NCBI GenBank assembly: GCA_027485915.1
Contig: JAIXQA010000075.1
Location: 120,431 to 184,430 of the forward strand
From: Alphaproteobacteria bacterium
GTDB taxonomy: Bacteria; Pseudomonadota; Alphaproteobacteria; Caulobacterales; Aquidulcibacteraceae
Reading direction: 5' to 3'
Length of the DNA: 64,000 bases
Numbering within the stretch: position 1 is the stretch's first letter; each line of letters begins with the position of its first letter. Positions 46,232 through 59,194 of the stretch are shown here, one piece after another. Under the pieces are notes generated by a model. It was not told the origin of the DNA. It saw nothing but the letters and a program-made list of their open reading frames with translations, and did not search any database. A program made the position numbers and the translations under genes.

Positions 46232-46246
46232 TTAATCAGGCCTTAA
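46232..46246. promoter_or_regulatory. CtrA-like box TTAA-N7-TTAA between fliX and flgI
   Basis: TTAA-TCAGGCC-TTAA(CC). Confidence 0.65.
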
Positions 46247-50809: not shown

Positions 50810-51457
50810 ATGGCCGGAAAAAAAGAGAAAAAGGGTGAAGCTCCTCCTGAGGGTGCTGATGGCGCCGAAGGCGAAGAAGGCGCTGGCGGCAAGAAGAAGC
50901 TTGCTGGCAAGCAGCTGATTTTATTCATCGTTCTGCCCGCTATCTTGCTTTTGGGCGGCGGCGGAGCTGCAGCCTATTTCCTCGTTTTCGCGAAGAAACC
51001 CGCCGCGGTTGCCGATGCCCATGGCGAAAAGGGTAAGGAAGGCGAGAAAAAGAAGAAGGACGAAAAGAAAAAGAAGGAAGATGGCAAGCACGACAAGGGC
51101 GGCGACAAGAAAGATGCCGCGGGCGGTGTTAAGCTGGCCGAAGGTCCGAATGGCGAGGGCTTCATGACCTTACCAGATTTGATCGTCAATATTGCCACCG
51201 CGGACTCTCGGCCGGCATATTTGAAGCTGCGTCTAACGCTGCAGGCCAAGGATTTGGAAACCGCTGAGGCGATTGAGCCGCTTCTGCCCCGGATACTCGA
51301 TCAATATACTGGCTTCCTGCGCGAATTGCGGATGGAAGATATCGCAGGGTCAGCCGGCTATTCGCGGCTGCAGCTTGAGCTTCTTAAGCGCGTGAATCTG
51401 GCGGTTGCGCCCGCCCAAGTCGATGCCGTGCTCATCGAAGAAATGTTGGTCCAATAA
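50810..51457 (+). CDS. fliL: Flagellar basal body-associated protein FliL
   Basis: Single TM (LILFIVLPAILLLGGGGAAAYFLVF), then FMTLPDLIVNIATADSRPAYLKLRLTLQ...LPRILDQYTGFLRELRMEDIAGSAGYSRLQLELLKRVNLAVAPAQVDAVLIEEMLVQ. Confidence 0.95.
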   Translation: MAGKKEKKGEAPPEGADGAEGEEGAGGKKKLAGKQLILFIVLPAILLLGGGGAAAYFLVFAKKPAAVADAHGEKGKEGEKKKKDEKKKKEDGKHDKGGDKKDAAGGVKLAEGPNGEGFMTLPDLIVNIATADSRPAYLKLRLTLQAKDLETAEAIEPLLPRILDQYTGFLRELRMEDIAGSAGYSRLQLELLKRVNLAVAPAQVDAVLIEEMLVQ

Positions 51458-52596
51458 TGGCGGATGATCTCGATCAAGATGCAATGGCGGCTGCTTGGGA
51501 AGCAGAAGCCATGGGTGAAGGTGGCGGTGGCGGCGGCGATGACGCCTTTGCTGCTGAATGGGAGGCCATGGTTGGTGGTGAGACCGGAAAGACCATCTCT
51601 GCCTCAGCCATTGGTGCCGAACGGGTTCTAAACCAAGACGAGATCGACTCGCTATTGGGCTTTGACCTTGGCGATGATGACAGCGATGAAAAGAACGGCA
51701 TCCGCGGCATCATCAATTCTGCGCTCGTTTCCTACGAGCGTCTGCCAATGTTGGAAATCGTCTTCGACCGTTTGGTGCGCTTAATGACCACCAGCTTGCG
51801 GAATTTCACCTCCGACAACGTTGAAGTCTCGCTGGACCACATTTCGTCGATCCGTTTTGGCGACTATCTCAACTCTATCCCGCTGCCCGCTATTTTAGCC
51901 GTTTTCCGCGCCGAGCAATTGGACAATTACGGTTTGATGACTGTTGATTCAAATCTGATTTACTCAATTGTGGACGTTCTCCTTGGTGGTCGCCGCGGCA
52001 CAACAGCGATGCGCATCGAAGGCCGTCCTTACACGACGATTGAGCGCATGCTGGTTACGCGGATGATCGAGGTGATTTTGCAAGACATGCAGGCTGCCTT
52101 TGAGCCGTTGAAGCAGGTGGATTTCTCGCTGGACCGGATTGAGACCAACCCGCGCTTTGCCGCCATCGCGCGGCCTGCCAACGCTGCCATCATGATCAAG
52201 ATGCGGATCGATATGGAAGACCGGGGCGGGCGGGTGGAGCTTCTTCTTCCTTACGCAACGCTTGAGCCGATCCGTAAAATGCTCATCCAACAATTCATGG
52301 GTGAGAAATTCGGGCGGGATAATATTTGGGAAGGCCACTTGGCTACCGAACTTTGGTCGACGGATATGCAGGTTGAGGCAGTCCTCGATGAGTTGCCGGT
52401 ACCATTGGGCCGCTTGTTGAACTTGAAGGTCGGTGAAACCGTGTTCTTGAACCAGCCCCCAGATGGCAGCGTGGAATTACGCTGTGGCCAAATCGCCTTA
52501 ACCAAAGGGCGCATGGGCAAAATGGGCCGTGCGATTGCCTTGTCTTTGGATGGGCCGCTCTCAAACTCGGCAAGACGGGAACTGATGAACCAATGA
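51457..52596 (+). CDS. fliM: Flagellar motor switch protein FliM
   Basis: VLNQDEIDSLLGF; YERLPMLEIVFDRLVRLMTTSLRNFTSDNVEVSL; NLKVGETVFLNQPPDGSVELRCG. Confidence 0.97.
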   Translation: MADDLDQDAMAAAWEAEAMGEGGGGGGDDAFAAEWEAMVGGETGKTISASAIGAERVLNQDEIDSLLGFDLGDDDSDEKNGIRGIINSALVSYERLPMLEIVFDRLVRLMTTSLRNFTSDNVEVSLDHISSIRFGDYLNSIPLPAILAVFRAEQLDNYGLMTVDSNLIYSIVDVLLGGRRGTTAMRIEGRPYTTIERMLVTRMIEVILQDMQAAFEPLKQVDFSLDRIETNPRFAAIARPANAAIMIKMRIDMEDRGGRVELLLPYATLEPIRKMLIQQFMGEKFGRDNIWEGHLATELWSTDMQVEAVLDELPVPLGRLLNLKVGETVFLNQPPDGSVELRCGQIALTKGRMGKMGRAIALSLDGPLSNSARRELMNQ

Positions 52597-53027
52597 CCGA
52601 CCTCTACATCCCGATTGCGCAGATCATTTTGGCTGTGGCTATGTTGGCGGTTGCCATTTTGTGCATCCGTCTCGACCGCAAGATTACCGCCCTTCGCGAA
52701 GGCAAAGACGGCGTGGCGGCGGCTGCTGCGGAACTTGCTTTGGCTGTTGGCCGGGCAGAAGCGTCGGTTTCAGCTTTGAAGTCGGTATCAGAGGCAGCTG
52801 GCGAAGACCTCCAACGCAGTATCGAAGAGGCACGTGCTGCGGCAGAGGCTTTGAAATTCCTAGTGACCACCGCCCGCGCGGTAGAGGTAAAGCCAGCCCC
52901 GGCACCAGAACCAGCGCCCGTCCGTCAAAAGCGCGACCTGCGTTGGGATGAAGAAGAAGTAGAAGAAGATTTCCGGTTGGCGCGGCGCGGCCGTCCGCTG
53001 ACCGAGACATGGGGTGGTTTGAGATGA
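52593..53027 (+). CDS. DUF6468-like single-pass membrane protein in fliLM operon
   Basis: N-terminal TM IAQIILAVAMLAVAILCIRL plus a helical region. ATGA overlaps with fliM and with the next gene. Confidence 0.65.
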   Translation: MTDLYIPIAQIILAVAMLAVAILCIRLDRKITALREGKDGVAAAAAELALAVGRAEASVSALKSVSEAAGEDLQRSIEEARAAAEALKFLVTTARAVEVKPAPAPEPAPVRQKRDLRWDEEEVEEDFRLARRGRPLTETWGGLR

Positions 53028-54010
53028 AGTTTAAGCTTCGGCCTTTGACGGCTTTGGCTTTAGGTTTGGGTGTGGTCGGCTTGGCGCAAGTCGGCCGCGT
53101 TGCGTTTGACGCTACCAACGCCATGGCTGCAGGCGAGCCTGCAAAGAAGGAGGCTGCAGCGCCAGCTGCGCCTGCCGAAGGTACGGCCGCCGCTGGTGCG
53201 CCTAAGGCTGGCCCGCCTATGTGTCTGCCTGTCGATTTGGCTAAGGAAGCCGGCATTAGTGCGGCTGAATTCCGCTTGCTGCAAACCTTGCAAGAGCGTC
53301 GCCAGACGCTGGACACGCGCGAGCGCGATATCGTGACTCGTGAAAATCTGCTGGCAACAACTGACGCGAAAATCCAAGAGCGAATGAATGCGTTGAAGGC
53401 CGTTGAAGGCAATCTTCAAAAACTATTGGGCCAAGTCGATGATTTGGAATCTCAGCGCATCACGTCGCTTGTCCGCGTCTACGAGAAGATGAAACCCAAA
53501 GATGCTGCGGCTGTTTGGGAAGGTTTAGACACCGAAGTCTTGTTGAAAATCGCTCAGAAAATGAAAGAGCAGCCACTCTCGCTCATTCTGGCAAAAATGT
53601 CGCCAGAGCGCGCCCGAGAGGTCACGCGGCGTTTGGCAGAAATTGATGCACCAGCTCTGCCTGTGATGGCCGGCAATCCACCAGCCGCGCCCCTTAATGC
53701 AGCTACCCCCGCCGCCCCTGCCGCTACGCCCCCTGCGGCGAAGGCACCCGCGGCCAAGGCCCCCCCTGCGAAGGCACCTGGCCAGCAAGCGGCCTTGAAT
53801 AATCAAGCTAAAGGTGGTCCTACCCCTAAGGGTTCCGCGGCAGCAAATGCAGCCTTGGACGCAAAAGGAGCTGGCCCAGCTGGTGCTGGTCCAACCACAC
53901 CGCGCGCGCCAACCCCTAAAGCCCCCAATAATCCATCAACCCCACAGCCTGCTGCAAAGGCAGCAAGTGGACAGGCCCCAGCAGATCCAGCACAACGACC
54001 AAAGGCCTAA
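53024..54010 (+). CDS. MotE-like protein (MgtE-N-type helical domain) with Pro/Ala-rich C-terminal tail
   Basis: Signal/TM at N-terminus; coiled coil; RVYEKMKPKDAAAVWEGLDTEVLLKIAQKMKEQPLSLILAKMSPERAREVTRRLAE. Start ATG 53024. Confidence 0.82.
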   Translation: MKFKLRPLTALALGLGVVGLAQVGRVAFDATNAMAAGEPAKKEAAAPAAPAEGTAAAGAPKAGPPMCLPVDLAKEAGISAAEFRLLQTLQERRQTLDTRERDIVTRENLLATTDAKIQERMNALKAVEGNLQKLLGQVDDLESQRITSLVRVYEKMKPKDAAAVWEGLDTEVLLKIAQKMKEQPLSLILAKMSPERAREVTRRLAEIDAPALPVMAGNPPAAPLNAATPAAPAATPPAAKAPAAKAPPAKAPGQQAALNNQAKGGPTPKGSAAANAALDAKGAGPAGAGPTTPRAPTPKAPNNPSTPQPAAKAASGQAPADPAQRPKA

Positions 54011-54149
54011 TTTAGGGCCTTTTTGCCTCTGCCACGCACCACAGGCTGGTAAGGGGAACTTAACCGGATTCAGGCATAAGCGGATTTCTCCAAAAACTGG
54101 GCCAGACGTGGCTTAGCGGTGGGAATAAGAGATCTGACTTAGAGACCAG

Positions 54150-57100
54150 ATGGCCAAATTGCGTCGGTTACTTGCTTATGTTGTCTGCGTGGCGCTCGCG
54201 TCACCGCCGATAGCCTATGGCCAAAATGCCGCGCCTGCTGGTGGAAATGCCCCGGTAGCCCTGCAAGGCCTCAAAGGGGTAAAGCTCTCTGCGAGCCAAG
54301 ATGCCACCTATGCACGTCTGTTAATCGCTTGGCCCGCGGGCACTAATCTTTCTGCCACAGTCGTGGCTACGCCCAACAATGGCCTAGCCATGATCCGTTT
54401 GCCACGGGCGATTGAAGCAGATCCAACCGCCTATGCCTCCGGGGCTCCAGAGTTTGTAGCCTCTGCCGCTTTGAGCAATGACAAGCGTACCATACGCGTG
54501 GCGCTTCTTCAGCCCACACGTGTCGTCACCAGCCGCGTTGGCAATGTGCAGGCCTTTGACTTTGTTTTGGCCAACGCCGAAGCGCCGCCGCCCTATGATG
54601 GGGAGCCCAAGGCACTAGCCTCTGCCGACTCGCAAGCTAAGGCAGGCGAGGGTGGGGCGAGCGACGGGTCTGGTCCGCCGAAGAAGATGATCAATGGTGC
54701 CGCGCCAATTGGTGCACCAAAGATACAAGTAGATGTATTTGAAGCGAAAGAATTCACCCGCCTGCGCCTGTCGCGGATCGGGAACCAGTTTCCTTTGCCC
54801 GCTCATGGCTATGCCCGCCGGGGAGATCGACTTGCGATTGCACTGCCTGGCAAGTTTGCTTTTGACACAGCCGCCATTCGCAACCGCCCCCCTGCACGGA
54901 TTGAAGATGCCGCGCGCTATAATTCCGATACAGATTCGTCATTCTTGCTTGACGTGGCGCCGGGCAGTGTCGTGCGACATAGCCGCGATGGTAATGCAAT
55001 TCTGATCGATATTCTGCCGGAGGGGGCAAACCCAGACACGATCGAGGCCTTGCAGCAAGAGGCTGGTGACAAGATCGGTTCACCGGAGCCAAAATCTGTG
55101 GCGGGGAAGGCGGCTTCGAAACAAGCACCCAAGGCAGGTGCGCCAGATGCAGGCGCGCCCTTAGATGATGGCGCGCAAGCTGAAGCCAGTGAAATGGATG
55201 CGGAAGCACTGTTAACGCAGCGACCAGATCCTGCTCCAACGGGCCGCGTCCGTATGAGCAGCGGCATGGTCGGGAAAGAATTGCAGCTCGAATTTGCCTT
55301 TGAAGCGCCAGCGCCCGCAGTCATTTATCGCCGAGGCGATTCCATTTACGCGCTGTTTGCGACTTCCGCTGAAATGGATATTGGCCGGGTCCCAAGCGGC
55401 AAATATGTGACCCGGATGGAGCGAGTCCGTGGCGAGGGCGTATCCGGCGTGCGCATTGTTGCGCCGCCAGAAGTGCAGGTTATCCCGACATCAATTGGGC
55501 CTAAATGGAAACTCGTCTTGTCGCCGCAAAGGCAAACGGCCTCGCGTTCCATCGGCCTCGTTCGCGAGCAGGCCTTGGATGGAACCTCGCGGGTGAAGGC
55601 GTTGGTGCCAGATGGTGCAGCCACTGGCGTGCTGACTGACCCCGAAGTGGGCGACACCATATTGGTGGGGCTCGCTCTTGGACCCGTCAGCAACTTGGCG
55701 GCACAGCGGTCGTACTTGGAAGCTGTCTTACCTGAAACTTATCATGGTCTTGTGGTTGCACCTCGGACCGATGACTTTGAATTACGCCGCGATGTTGATG
55801 GCTTTGTATTGGTTCGGCCCGAAGGTATGGCGTTGTCGGGCCTTACGGGATCGGACGAAATGGAAGCTGGCGCGGCAGTTGCCCCTGGCTTTATTGACTT
55901 CAAGTCATGGCAGTTGGGGCCAAAGGCCGATTTTACCAATAACCTCAATAAATTACGGCGCAAAGCTGCGATTGAACTGGGCGATACCAATAATAAGATT
56001 ACCGCTCGTGTTGATTTGGCGCGCTTCCTTGTGGCTTGGGACTTGGGTGCTGAAGCGTCGGGTGTCATCCGTCAATTGCGGTCAGACGTGCCCGCCCTGG
56101 AGCGCTCGCCAGAGCTTTTGGCCCTTGAGGGCATTGCAACTCTTATGGGTGGACATGGCAAAGCGGCTTTAGATTTGTTGAGCGAGCCCGAAATCGCAGA
56201 AGATCCAGCCGCACAATTATGGGCGGGGCTGGCTGCCCAAATGAGTGGTAATCCCAGTGAAGCCCGTGTCCGCTTTGAGCGCGGCAAAACCGCGTTGCAG
56301 AATTTTGAGCCTGAGTATCGCGCGCGCTTCAATATTGCGAATGGCAATGCGGCTTTGGAGATGGGCGATGGTGCCTTGGCATCAATGGCGGCCACCAGCG
56401 CACAACGTGAAGCCCAGAACAGCCTAACCCAATTGCAGGCCGCCCTTTTGGCAGCTCGGGCCATGGGGGCAACTGGGCGCGTCAATGAAGCGCTGGTCGC
56501 CCTGACAAAATTGGCGAGTGCGCCAGACCGTGAAATTGCTGCGCGTGCTGCTTATGAAAAGGCCAATCTTGGTGAGTCGAGCGGCAAGATCCCCCCGATA
56601 GAATCGATCAAGGCTCTTGATGCGCTGCGTTATAGTTGGCGCGGGGATGATTTAGAGCTCGATATTCTGCGCCGCTTGGGTGGCCTCTATATTCAAGCAG
56701 GCGATATTCGCTCAGGCTTGACCACAATGGCGAGTGCATCGACCTTGCGGCCTGACTTGCCCGCAGCACGGCGTTTGCGTGATGATCTGTTCCAGCAATT
56801 CAAGTTCTTATTCTTGGAAGGTGGTGCGGATGGCATGGACCCAATCCAAGCCTTGGCACTCTTTTATGACTTCCGCAATTTGGCCCCGATTGGCCCGGAT
56901 GGAGACCGGATGGTGCGAGGCTTGGCTGAGCGGCTCGTTGCGCTCGACCTATTGCCCCAGGCAACCCAATTGCTGCAGCACCAAGTCGATAAGCGGTTAG
57001 AAGGCTTCTCGAAGTCTCAGGTCGCAACCGATCTGGCCGCCCTCTATCTGATGGACCGTCGTCCCGAAGATGCCTTACGCGCGATTTGGAACAGCCGCGT

Positions 57101-57926
57101 ATCTCTTTTGCCAGAACCGCTGAACGAGCAACGCCGCTTGATCGAAGCAGCAAGCCTAGCCGAACTCGGTCGCAAAGATCATGCGCTTGAGACGATTGAG
57201 TTTGACGATTCTCCCGATGCCGCCCGGGTGCGGACCGAAATCTATATGCGTGCGGGCGATTGGCCAAATGCGGCGGCGAATGCGCGGGCTTCGCTGCCTC
57301 CAGCCCGGGCTAATTTGACTCCGGAAGATGCCGGTGAAGTTTTGCGGGTAGCCGTGGCCCAAGCCATGGCACGCGAAGATGGCTTTAATCGTGGATTGGT
57401 TCGCACCCACGGCCCTGCCATGAGCAAAAGTGCTTATGCTGAAGCCTTTAAGGTCGTAACCGATACGGCCATTCCCTCAAGCGCTGCCTTGCAATCGGCT
57501 GTAAAAATCGCCACCGGTGGCTCGCCCTATGATGGGCTGATGCGTCGTTTGCGCGACCGATTGAACCAGATCGAAGCGCCGACCGATGCCCAAACTGCCC
57601 AAGCCGCCAACGCCAATGGCCCCACCGATGGCAACCCGAATGGCCGTTTAAGCGCGGCCCTGCTTTCAGTTCTTCCAAAAGCCCTGCAGCCTGACGCAGC
57701 ACCCAAGCAAGAAGCACCACTCTTGCCAGACGTTCGCCCAAGCTTGCCGCCACAACGATCGCCAGCCGTGGCCTCCGCACCACAGCGTGCCCCGGTGCGT
57801 CCGGCCAATGCGGCACCAAAGACGGCGCAAAATCAAACTAAAGCGAAAGCACCGGCCCGACCAGCTGCTCGCGCTGGAGTCGATGCGCCCCGCGATCCCC
57901 CGCCTGCACCTGTTGTCGGTCGCTAG
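54150..57926 (+). CDS. Large (1258 aa) secreted TPR-repeat protein in flagellar cluster
   Basis: Signal peptide MAKLRRLLAYVVCVALASPPIAYG; N-terminal beta-rich segments; C-terminal half of TPR-like helical pairs (e.g. LWAGLAAQMSGNPSEARVRFERGKTAL); Pro/Ala-rich tail. Confidence 0.8.
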   Translation: MAKLRRLLAYVVCVALASPPIAYGQNAAPAGGNAPVALQGLKGVKLSASQDATYARLLIAWPAGTNLSATVVATPNNGLAMIRLPRAIEADPTAYASGAPEFVASAALSNDKRTIRVALLQPTRVVTSRVGNVQAFDFVLANAEAPPPYDGEPKALASADSQAKAGEGGASDGSGPPKKMINGAAPIGAPKIQVDVFEAKEFTRLRLSRIGNQFPLPAHGYARRGDRLAIALPGKFAFDTAAIRNRPPARIEDAARYNSDTDSSFLLDVAPGSVVRHSRDGNAILIDILPEGANPDTIEALQQEAGDKIGSPEPKSVAGKAASKQAPKAGAPDAGAPLDDGAQAEASEMDAEALLTQRPDPAPTGRVRMSSGMVGKELQLEFAFEAPAPAVIYRRGDSIYALFATSAEMDIGRVPSGKYVTRMERVRGEGVSGVRIVAPPEVQVIPTSIGPKWKLVLSPQRQTASRSIGLVREQALDGTSRVKALVPDGAATGVLTDPEVGDTILVGLALGPVSNLAAQRSYLEAVLPETYHGLVVAPRTDDFELRRDVDGFVLVRPEGMALSGLTGSDEMEAGAAVAPGFIDFKSWQLGPKADFTNNLNKLRRKAAIELGDTNNKITARVDLARFLVAWDLGAEASGVIRQLRSDVPALERSPELLALEGIATLMGGHGKAALDLLSEPEIAEDPAAQLWAGLAAQMSGNPSEARVRFERGKTALQNFEPEYRARFNIANGNAALEMGDGALASMAATSAQREAQNSLTQLQAALLAARAMGATGRVNEALVALTKLASAPDREIAARAAYEKANLGESSGKIPPIESIKALDALRYSWRGDDLELDILRRLGGLYIQAGDIRSGLTTMASASTLRPDLPAARRLRDDLFQQFKFLFLEGGADGMDPIQALALFYDFRNLAPIGPDGDRMVRGLAERLVALDLLPQATQLLQHQVDKRLEGFSKSQVATDLAALYLMDRRPEDALRAIWNSRVSLLPEPLNEQRRLIEAASLAELGRKDHALETIEFDDSPDAARVRTEIYMRAGDWPNAAANARASLPPARANLTPEDAGEVLRVAVAQAMAREDGFNRGLVRTHGPAMSKSAYAEAFKVVTDTAIPSSAALQSAVKIATGGSPYDGLMRRLRDRLNQIEAPTDAQTAQAANANGPTDGNPNGRLSAALLSVLPKALQPDAAPKQEAPLLPDVRPSLPPQRSPAVASAPQRAPVRPANAAPKTAQNQTKAKAPARPAARAGVDAPRDPPPAPVVGR

Positions 57927-58741
57927 CCCGGCGGCACGGCCCTAAAACTTTGCACAAGGCTTTCAGCAACCAAGCGCCAGCCATCCACCAGTACGAAGAA
58001 GATTAGCTTAAACGGCAGCGATACAACGACCGGTGGCAACATCATCATGCCCATCGCCATCAAAAGCGATGCCACAACCAGATCAATTACCAAAAACGGC
58101 ACGAACAAGAGAAACCCGATCTCAAAGGCACGCCGCAATTCGGAAATCATAAAGGCCGGCGTGACCACGCGCATCGGTAACGCTTGCGCATTTTGTGGGG
58201 TCGGGATGCGAGCTAGACGGATAAAAAGCTCAAGGTCTTTTTCGCGTGTCTGTGCCAACATGAATTGTTTCAAGGGCTCGGTTGCGCGCGGCCAGGCTTG
58301 CTCCATCGTCACCTCTTGCTTGGTCAGAGGGGCAATGCCCTCATTCCAACTCCGCTCAAACGTCGGCTGCATGATGAAGGCAGTCAGAAACAGCGCGAGC
58401 GAGACCATCACCGCATTGGGAGGCGCTTGTTGTAGGCCGATGGCCGTCCGTAACAAGGACAATACCACGACGATCCTTACGAAGCTCGTCGTCATAATCA
58501 CGACGGAAGGGGCGAGTGAAAGAACAGTGATCAGCGCAACCGTCTGAACAACACGCTCGGTCAACCCAGTCCCAGTTCCTAAGTCCAGATTGATGCTCTG
58601 CGCCATAGCGGTGGCAACCCCCAGCATAGAGGCACCCATCGCGCACACAAAAATAATCAGCCAACGCTGAAGAAGGCGCTTTAGCTCTGCCTTAGATTGG
58701 CCGTGAGCGGGCGAGGCTTTCTGCGGGGCTTTGGGCTTCAT
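57923..58741 (-). CDS. fliP: Flagellar type III export protein FliP
   Basis: LSLAPSVVIMTTSFVRIVVVLSLLRTAIGLQQAPPNAVMVSLALFLT; VVTPAFMISELRRAFEIGFLLFVPFLVIDLVVASLLMAMGMMMLPP. Confidence 0.97.
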   Translation of the reverse strand: MKPKAPQKASPAHGQSKAELKRLLQRWLIIFVCAMGASMLGVATAMAQSINLDLGTGTGLTERVVQTVALITVLSLAPSVVIMTTSFVRIVVVLSLLRTAIGLQQAPPNAVMVSLALFLTAFIMQPTFERSWNEGIAPLTKQEVTMEQAWPRATEPLKQFMLAQTREKDLELFIRLARIPTPQNAQALPMRVVTPAFMISELRRAFEIGFLLFVPFLVIDLVVASLLMAMGMMMLPPVVVSLPFKLIFFVLVDGWRLVAESLVQSFRAVPPG

Positions 58742-59145: not shown

Positions 59146-59160
59146 TTAATCAAAAGTTAA
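59146..59160. promoter_or_regulatory. CtrA-like box 1 between fliO and flgB
   Basis: TTAA-TCAAAAG-TTAA. Confidence 0.7.
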
Positions 59161-59179
59161 CAAAAGGCCTTCATAGTTC

Positions 59180-59194
59180 TTAATCAGTGCTTAA
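59180..59194. promoter_or_regulatory. CtrA-like box 2 between fliO and flgB
   Basis: TTAA-TCAGTGC-TTAA, followed by CCAT (TTAACCAT half-site). Confidence 0.75.

Follow-up and report, generated by a model that had tools for sequence, protein, structure and literature searches.

What is encoded directly after fliL and fliM in this 64,000-nucleotide stretch of a Caulobacterales genome (hereafter, the window), where a DUF6468 transmembrane protein, a MotE-like protein and an exported TPR protein of 1258 residues follow one another? All five open reading frames (ORFs) have been confirmed, and our comparison with relatives, predicted structures and published systems makes it likely that the genes after fliM form the E-ring/spoke module of the alphaproteobacterial flagellar motor, with the MotE-like protein as the ring, the TPR/AMIN protein as the spoke, and the DUF6468 protein, PflI, as their partner. 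The sequence-only reading, i.e. an earlier reading of the same DNA, had presented the module as undescribed, a view that we have abandoned: PflI, the MotE/FlgY E-ring, MotK and CC_2058/FssB have been described (PMC10954123, PMC13023049, PMC11870540, PMC7885107), and the window module is the Aquidulcibacter copy of this described system, with a somewhat larger spoke, and not a new machine. The proposal of a MotE partner and a PflA-like periplasmic TPR scaffold for the stator, made in the same reading, agrees with the evidence presented here, and is essentially the hypothesis that was published in 2024-2026.

Our analysis of the spoke protein is built on profiles of its relatives, since the window protein alone has given no match in sequence searches of Pfam, NCBIfam or the Protein Data Bank (PDB). 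The TPR helices that had been suspected in its C-terminal half are undetected by Pfam in the window protein itself; they are supported by the relatives, where TPR families are detected in up to 14 of 19 proteins, and by AlphaFold2, which (with 50 relatives) models residues 584-1154 as a helical superhelix, at a predicted local distance difference test (pLDDT) score of 85.5. The N-terminal ~550 residues, where the sequence-only reading had recognised no domain, are, by predicted structure and profile comparison, a tandem of three AMIN-like domains followed by one more beta domain: AlphaFold2 (with 58 relatives) predicts four separate beta domains (pLDDT 82.7), the first three being joined by disordered linkers, and the profile matches among the first three (domain 1 with 2, P=4e-14; 2 with 3, P=2.5e-11; 1 with 3, P=3.5e-4) indicate that these are repeats of one domain, while the fourth has no profile match to any of them. 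The profile comparisons have been controlled with reversed and column-shuffled profiles, and the controls stayed at background. A fold comparison of the product of 54150..57926, proposed in the sequence-only reading, points, if weakly, to both AMIN-like beta domains and a TPR superhelix: the top Foldseek match of the N-terminal half is 3jc8_Qa (9e-4), from a model of the type IVa pilus machine, with the PilQ B2 domain at 0.012 and AmiC at 0.13, and the third-best PDB match of the TPR half is the Campylobacter periplasmic flagellar scaffold (9hmf). The spoke protein also carries long Pro/Ala-rich linkers and a long tail of the same composition.

In AmiC and PilQ, the AMIN fold is associated with binding to peptidoglycan, and the tandem AMIN domains offer a concrete point on how spokes hold the cell wall. 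Their number differs by lineage, with three copies in Aquidulcibacter, Phycosocius and Maricaulis-type proteins, two in Caulobacteraceae and one in MotK; one family (L038, L039) has, next to flagella of the FliM type, short spoke forms of ~590-690 residues, with no room for the full beta-domain set ahead of the TPRs. It is conceivable, if rather doubtful, that the spoke is a modular ruler, where the lineage-specific AMIN number (3, 2, 1, possibly 0 in the short TPR-only forms) would set the grip on peptidoglycan and through it the stator radius or the load response, and where the fourth beta domain would be a new interface, undescribed for PflA. The structure 3JC8, to which the top match belongs, is the PilQ AMIN reference in PMC11870540. 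For the Caulobacter protein, the accessible literature reports one AMIN-like domain, at residues 36-132 (PMC10954123); next to this the three tandem domains are a fresh detail, although a figure of PMC11870540, where beta-sheets are counted for each homologue, may already show the additional ones.

Sequence and gene order together identify the window spoke protein as the orthologue of Caulobacter CC_2058 (fssB). In Caulobacter crescentus, the order of CC_2058/CC_2059 after fliLM matches the window, and both the MotE and the TPR protein are orthologous; CC_2059 and CC_2058 have been proposed as the E-ring protein and its spoke partner (PMC13023049, PMC11870540). Deletion of fssB leaves a paralysed flagellum, with filaments that are present but do not rotate, and blocks stator-dependent surface signalling, FssB acting in the stator pathway (PMC7885107). 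The corresponding proteins in Caulobacter metagenome-assembled genomes (L115, L119, L123) are ~36-38% identical to the window protein; the Caulobacteraceae spoke has ~970 residues, whereas the window protein has 1258, adding the N-terminal AMIN-like domain 1, longer linkers and a longer tail.

The relation to Cereibacter MotK is more distant: MotK and the Caulobacteraceae proteins are not similar by BLAST, their homology having been argued from the fold of the N-terminus (PMC10954123). We have collected MotK-type proteins from the same order, two of which were read within fliL-pflI-motE-motA operons, and the comparison has revealed a profile match between AMIN-like domain 2 and the N-terminal domain of MotK (P=3.5e-10), as well as a match between the two TPR regions (P=2e-7, 436 columns); reversed and shuffled controls were negative in both cases. 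Because TPR families are generally alike, the AMIN match and the shared domain order carry most of the weight. At the level of profiles, where BLAST had missed it, the spoke protein is thus a homologue of MotK, which adds sequence-level evidence to a proposed MotK-CC_2058 homology that was previously based on predicted structure.

The MotE-like protein consists of an N-terminal signal or anchor, a helical region, an MgtE_N (ARM-like) domain and a Pro/Ala-rich tail. It matches the NCBIfam FlbB model with E=9e-7 (residues 86-205, profile positions 66-192 of 193) and MgtE_N, the domain that defines FlgY homologues in PMC13023049, with E=2e-4 (residues 144-204); among 20 family members, 19 match the FlbB model and 19 match MgtE_N (best 2e-7). 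By these matches, it belongs to the MotE/FlgY/FlbB E-ring family; when PDB sequences were searched with its family profile, the matches were at chance level or to MgtE, and included no FlgY or FlbB chain. Cys67, its sole cysteine, is invariant across all 20 family members, which predicts a disulfide dimer: in Cereibacter, the single MotE cysteine (C20 of the mature protein) makes a stabilising disulfide dimer, and C53 of Sinorhizobium meliloti MotE corresponds to it, with its loss having a like effect (PMC10954123). The DUF6468 protein has a single N-terminal transmembrane helix (residues 7-25) and a short helical domain, and lies within the fliL-motE operon; from its DUF6468 match and the gene order in PMC10954123 we assign it to the PflI family, PflI being the name of the protein between fliL and motE, which the same paper links to flagellar positioning in Caulobacter. 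The control genome of Caulobacter vibrioides also contains DUF6468, as do 60 of the 62 FliM-bearing genomes of the order sample described below; C. crescentus PflI, like the window protein, is encoded between fliL/fliM and motE.

Our search for the spoke protein across genomes covers an order sample of 100 genomes and a class sample of 191 genomes. In the order, the protein occurs in 61/62 FliM-bearing genomes (G084 being counted on an E=1e-3 match only) and in 0/38 FliM-less ones; in the class, it occurs in 102/110 and 5/81, respectively (Fisher P=2e-37, uncorrected for shared ancestry), three of the five FliM-less carriers being less than 90% complete. The sequence-only reading had named co-occurrence as the check and presence in non-flagellated genomes as the counter-evidence, and these counts speak for it on both. 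FlgI is found in 96 of the 100 genomes of the order, and 34 of them are flagellated by this measure without a PF02154 FliM; since all 34 lack the spoke protein, it tracks one type of flagellum, the FliM-bearing type across Alphaproteobacteria, rather than flagellation in general. In 73 of 97 class genomes, fliM is at most 10 kb away from the best spoke match, and the open frame is kept, with motE directly 5' of the spoke gene, in 58 of the 66 named loci that could be tested (the automated count being 57, with L113 read as adjacent on inspection), including loci of Caulobacter, Phenylobacterium and Maricaulis; such persistence argues that the ORFs and their order are not due to chance.

In four FliM-less genomes (G016, G090, G001 and G011; L032-L035), fliL-(PflI)-MotE is kept, and the spoke gene is absent beside them. 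Three further genomes (G020, G035 and G074; L038, L137, L135, L133) each have two FlgI genes and both the FliM-type spoke and MotK, a gene content that suggests two flagellar systems side by side. Two genomes with a divergent FliM encode an exported TPR protein of ~560 residues (L046:11346-13037 and L047:1773-3455), with flgF/flgG and a gene resembling motA or motB in its vicinity; this protein may be a further reduced spoke, or may resemble MotC.

By analogy with the homologues, where the geometry of the E-ring, the binding partners, the attachment to peptidoglycan and the activation of the stator are concerned, the module would operate as follows. MotE, which like the spoke protein is supported as an exported protein by its N-terminal sequence, would dimerise through the Cys67 disulfide, and its MgtE_N/ARM-like domains would form the E-ring round the MS-ring, with the coiled coils pointing outward; the TPR superhelix of the spoke would bind MotE as well as the stator side, the tandem AMIN-like domains would fix the spoke to peptidoglycan, and the anchored spoke would allow the recruitment or activation of MotA/MotB units at the correct radius, with PflI as the inner-membrane partner from the same operon. 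In Cereibacter, MotE, MotK and MotB2 interact, and rotation requires both MotE and MotK (PMC10954123).

Several observations weigh against this assignment. The Aquidulcibacter-like module is known from sequence and predicted structure, and peptidoglycan binding by its AMIN-like domains is extrapolated from homologues. The Foldseek E-values of the N-terminal half are weak, with small heat-shock/CS beta-sandwiches scoring nearly as well, and the template-modelling score of the TPR half against the Campylobacter scaffold is low (0.31), a value that can arise between any pair of TPR superhelices. The FlbB match of the MotE-like protein is far under the equivalog cut-off of 110 bits for that model, and is informative at the level of the family only, while its MgtE_N score is under the Pfam cut-off. 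Finally, in Robiginitomaculum-type genomes the spoke gene lies outside the fliLM operon.

The module could alternatively be a chaperone-client pair, where MotE only stabilises the periplasmic TPR protein outside the motor, as was initially proposed for MotE/MotC of S. meliloti and as the sequence-only reading had suggested for MotE. The adjacency of the motE and spoke genes is compatible with such a pair, as is the loss of MotC upon motE deletion, as summarised in PMC13023049; we consider it unlikely, however, given that Cereibacter MotE (as MotE-sfGFP) is found at the flagellated pole without MotK, and that MotE, not MotK, is the unstable partner, MotK being stable without MotE (PMC10954123, PMC13023049). 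The MotE relatives FlgY and FlbB are moreover structural ring proteins, and MotE is present without the spoke family of the window in the FliM-less flagella of L032-L035.

An independent origin, with a distinct scaffold having reached the AMIN-plus-TPR architecture on its own and being merely analogous to PflA/MotK, would account for the BLAST result of PMC10954123 and for the differing number of AMIN domains, but the AMIN-like part and the TPR part each match MotK by profile, in like order and with negative reversed and shuffled controls, and both spoke and MotK are located in fliL-pflI-motE operons; this explanation is already disfavoured, and in our estimate very improbable. We assign an even smaller probability to a general periplasmic TPR/AMIN protein, i.e. 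an organiser of the cell wall or the pole with an incidental flagellar neighbourhood: AMIN domains do occur in amidases and PilQ as well, and the Robiginitomaculum gene is away from flagellar genes, but the scarcity of FliM-less carriers and the paralysis caused by deletion of the orthologue have already brought this explanation close to refutation.

The E-ring/spoke assignment is further illustrated by the comparison with known motors. Cereibacter sphaeroides MotE-MotK shares with the window the fliL-pflI-motE operon, the order of AMIN-like and then TPR domains, and the single MotE cysteine; it differs in that MotK has 652 residues (~750-820 in the Caulobacterales copies used here) and one AMIN domain, and that motK is encoded after motA, in flagella without the FliM family of the window. 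Campylobacter jejuni FlgY-PflA likewise combines a coiled-coil and ARM-like ring protein with an AMIN and TPR spoke (PMC11870540), whereas PflA has one AMIN domain, the PflB rim and cage proteins are extra, and the likeness is one of fold and architecture. The FlbB-FlcB collar of Borrelia is related to the window through the FlbB match of MotE, but has further proteins. S. meliloti MotE-MotC also pairs a MotE-family protein with a TPR-type periplasmic partner; its motE lies between flgI and flgH, unlike in the window, and MotC is without an AMIN domain according to PMC13023049.

Features of the flagellar locus in the window, with predicted domains and candidate sites
Feature	Position	Strand	Basis
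fliL	50810..51457	+	PF03748 E=3.6e-15
fliM (C-ring switch protein)	51457..52596	+	PF02154 E=1.4e-69
pflI (DUF6468)	52593..53027	+	PF20072 E=1.5e-11; transmembrane residues 7-25; gene order as pflI in PMC10954123
motE / flgY-type E-ring protein	53024..54010	+	NCBIfam FlbB E=9e-7; MgtE_N E=2e-4
Cys67 codon of MotE-like protein	53222..53224	+	sole cysteine, invariant 20/20; candidate inter-chain disulfide
CtrA-box-like block GGTAAG-N3-A-N2-TTAACC	54048..54066	+	motE-TPR gap; conservation in Phycosocius
fssB / motK / pflA-type periplasmic spoke protein, 1258 residues	54150..57926	+	profiles, AlphaFold2, distribution
Spoke signal peptide, residues 1-25, cleavage point approximate	54150..54224	+	RR-hydrophobic core-AYG; hydropathy peak 7-25
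AMIN-like domain 1, residues 41-140	54270..54569	+	AlphaFold2 beta domain; matches domain 2 by profile (P=4e-14)
AMIN-like domain 2, residues 191-289	54720..55016	+	AlphaFold2; matches N-terminal domain of MotK by profile (P=3.5e-10)
AMIN-like domain 3, residues 366-458	55245..55523	+	AlphaFold2; matches domain 2 by profile (P=2.5e-11)
Fourth all-beta domain, residues 469-555	55554..55814	+	AlphaFold2; no profile match to AMIN-like domains
TPR superhelix, residues 584-1154	55899..57611	+	AlphaFold2 pLDDT 85.5, all helical; MotK profile match over 436-441 columns
Pro/Ala-rich C-terminal tail of spoke protein	57627..57923	+	long form restricted to Aquidulcibacter, Phycosocius and their close relatives
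fliP	57923..58741	-	convergent; its stop overlaps spoke gene stop by 4 nucleotides

The stop-to-start overlaps that had been noted along the whole series hold from fliL through fliM and pflI to motE, where consecutive ORFs overlap by 1-4 bases, but not for the spoke gene, which is separated from motE by a gap of 139 nucleotides; an alternative start of the MotE-like ORF is possible at 53009. Pfam and the ORF list of the window place convergent fliP and fliO beyond the spoke gene, and fliP is located downstream of it, in the same orientation, in 45 of the 45 loci that show both. The assembly, of 3.3 Mb, belongs to the Caulobacterales and is closest to Aquidulcibacter (the large protein is 92% identical to that of L048). 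Its stator genes lie away from the module: one MotB_plug match is on contig C15, and three MotA/ExbB-family matches are on other contigs. A phage or horizontally acquired origin has been dropped, the gene order being ancestral across the order.

The loci where motE does not directly precede the spoke gene are from Robiginitomaculum-like metagenome-assembled genomes; such displaced spoke genes are found at L045:4374-9952 and in L059, L063, L067, L068, L079, L086, L100 and L125. At L045, the gene follows that of a TonB-dependent-receptor plug, near dnaK/dnaJ-like genes; a TonB-linked role has been dropped, since such a neighbour was identified in L045 only.

The gap between motE and the spoke gene contains a block (54048-54066) that resembles the CtrA box (GTAA-N7-TTAA) and that is retained in two diverged loci of Phycosocius (L052, L053), where the surrounding gap is not. 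The frequency of CtrA boxes in the window, counted in this single genome, is not above chance, so that the conservation of the gap block is what supports the putative element, which may provide the spoke gene with a promoter of its own in Aquidulcibacter. A scan of 53800-58000 for terminators and promoters has given results near chance, and a hairpin after motE has been rejected as a terminator, since its stability is modest (z -1.67) and it is not conserved in L050. Elsewhere in the window, two perfect TTAA-N7-TTAA sites occur 34 bp apart at 59146-59194, between fliO (minus strand) and flgB (plus strand), with a third one at 46232-46246; these sites likely reflect CtrA control of the flagellar operons, as in Caulobacter.

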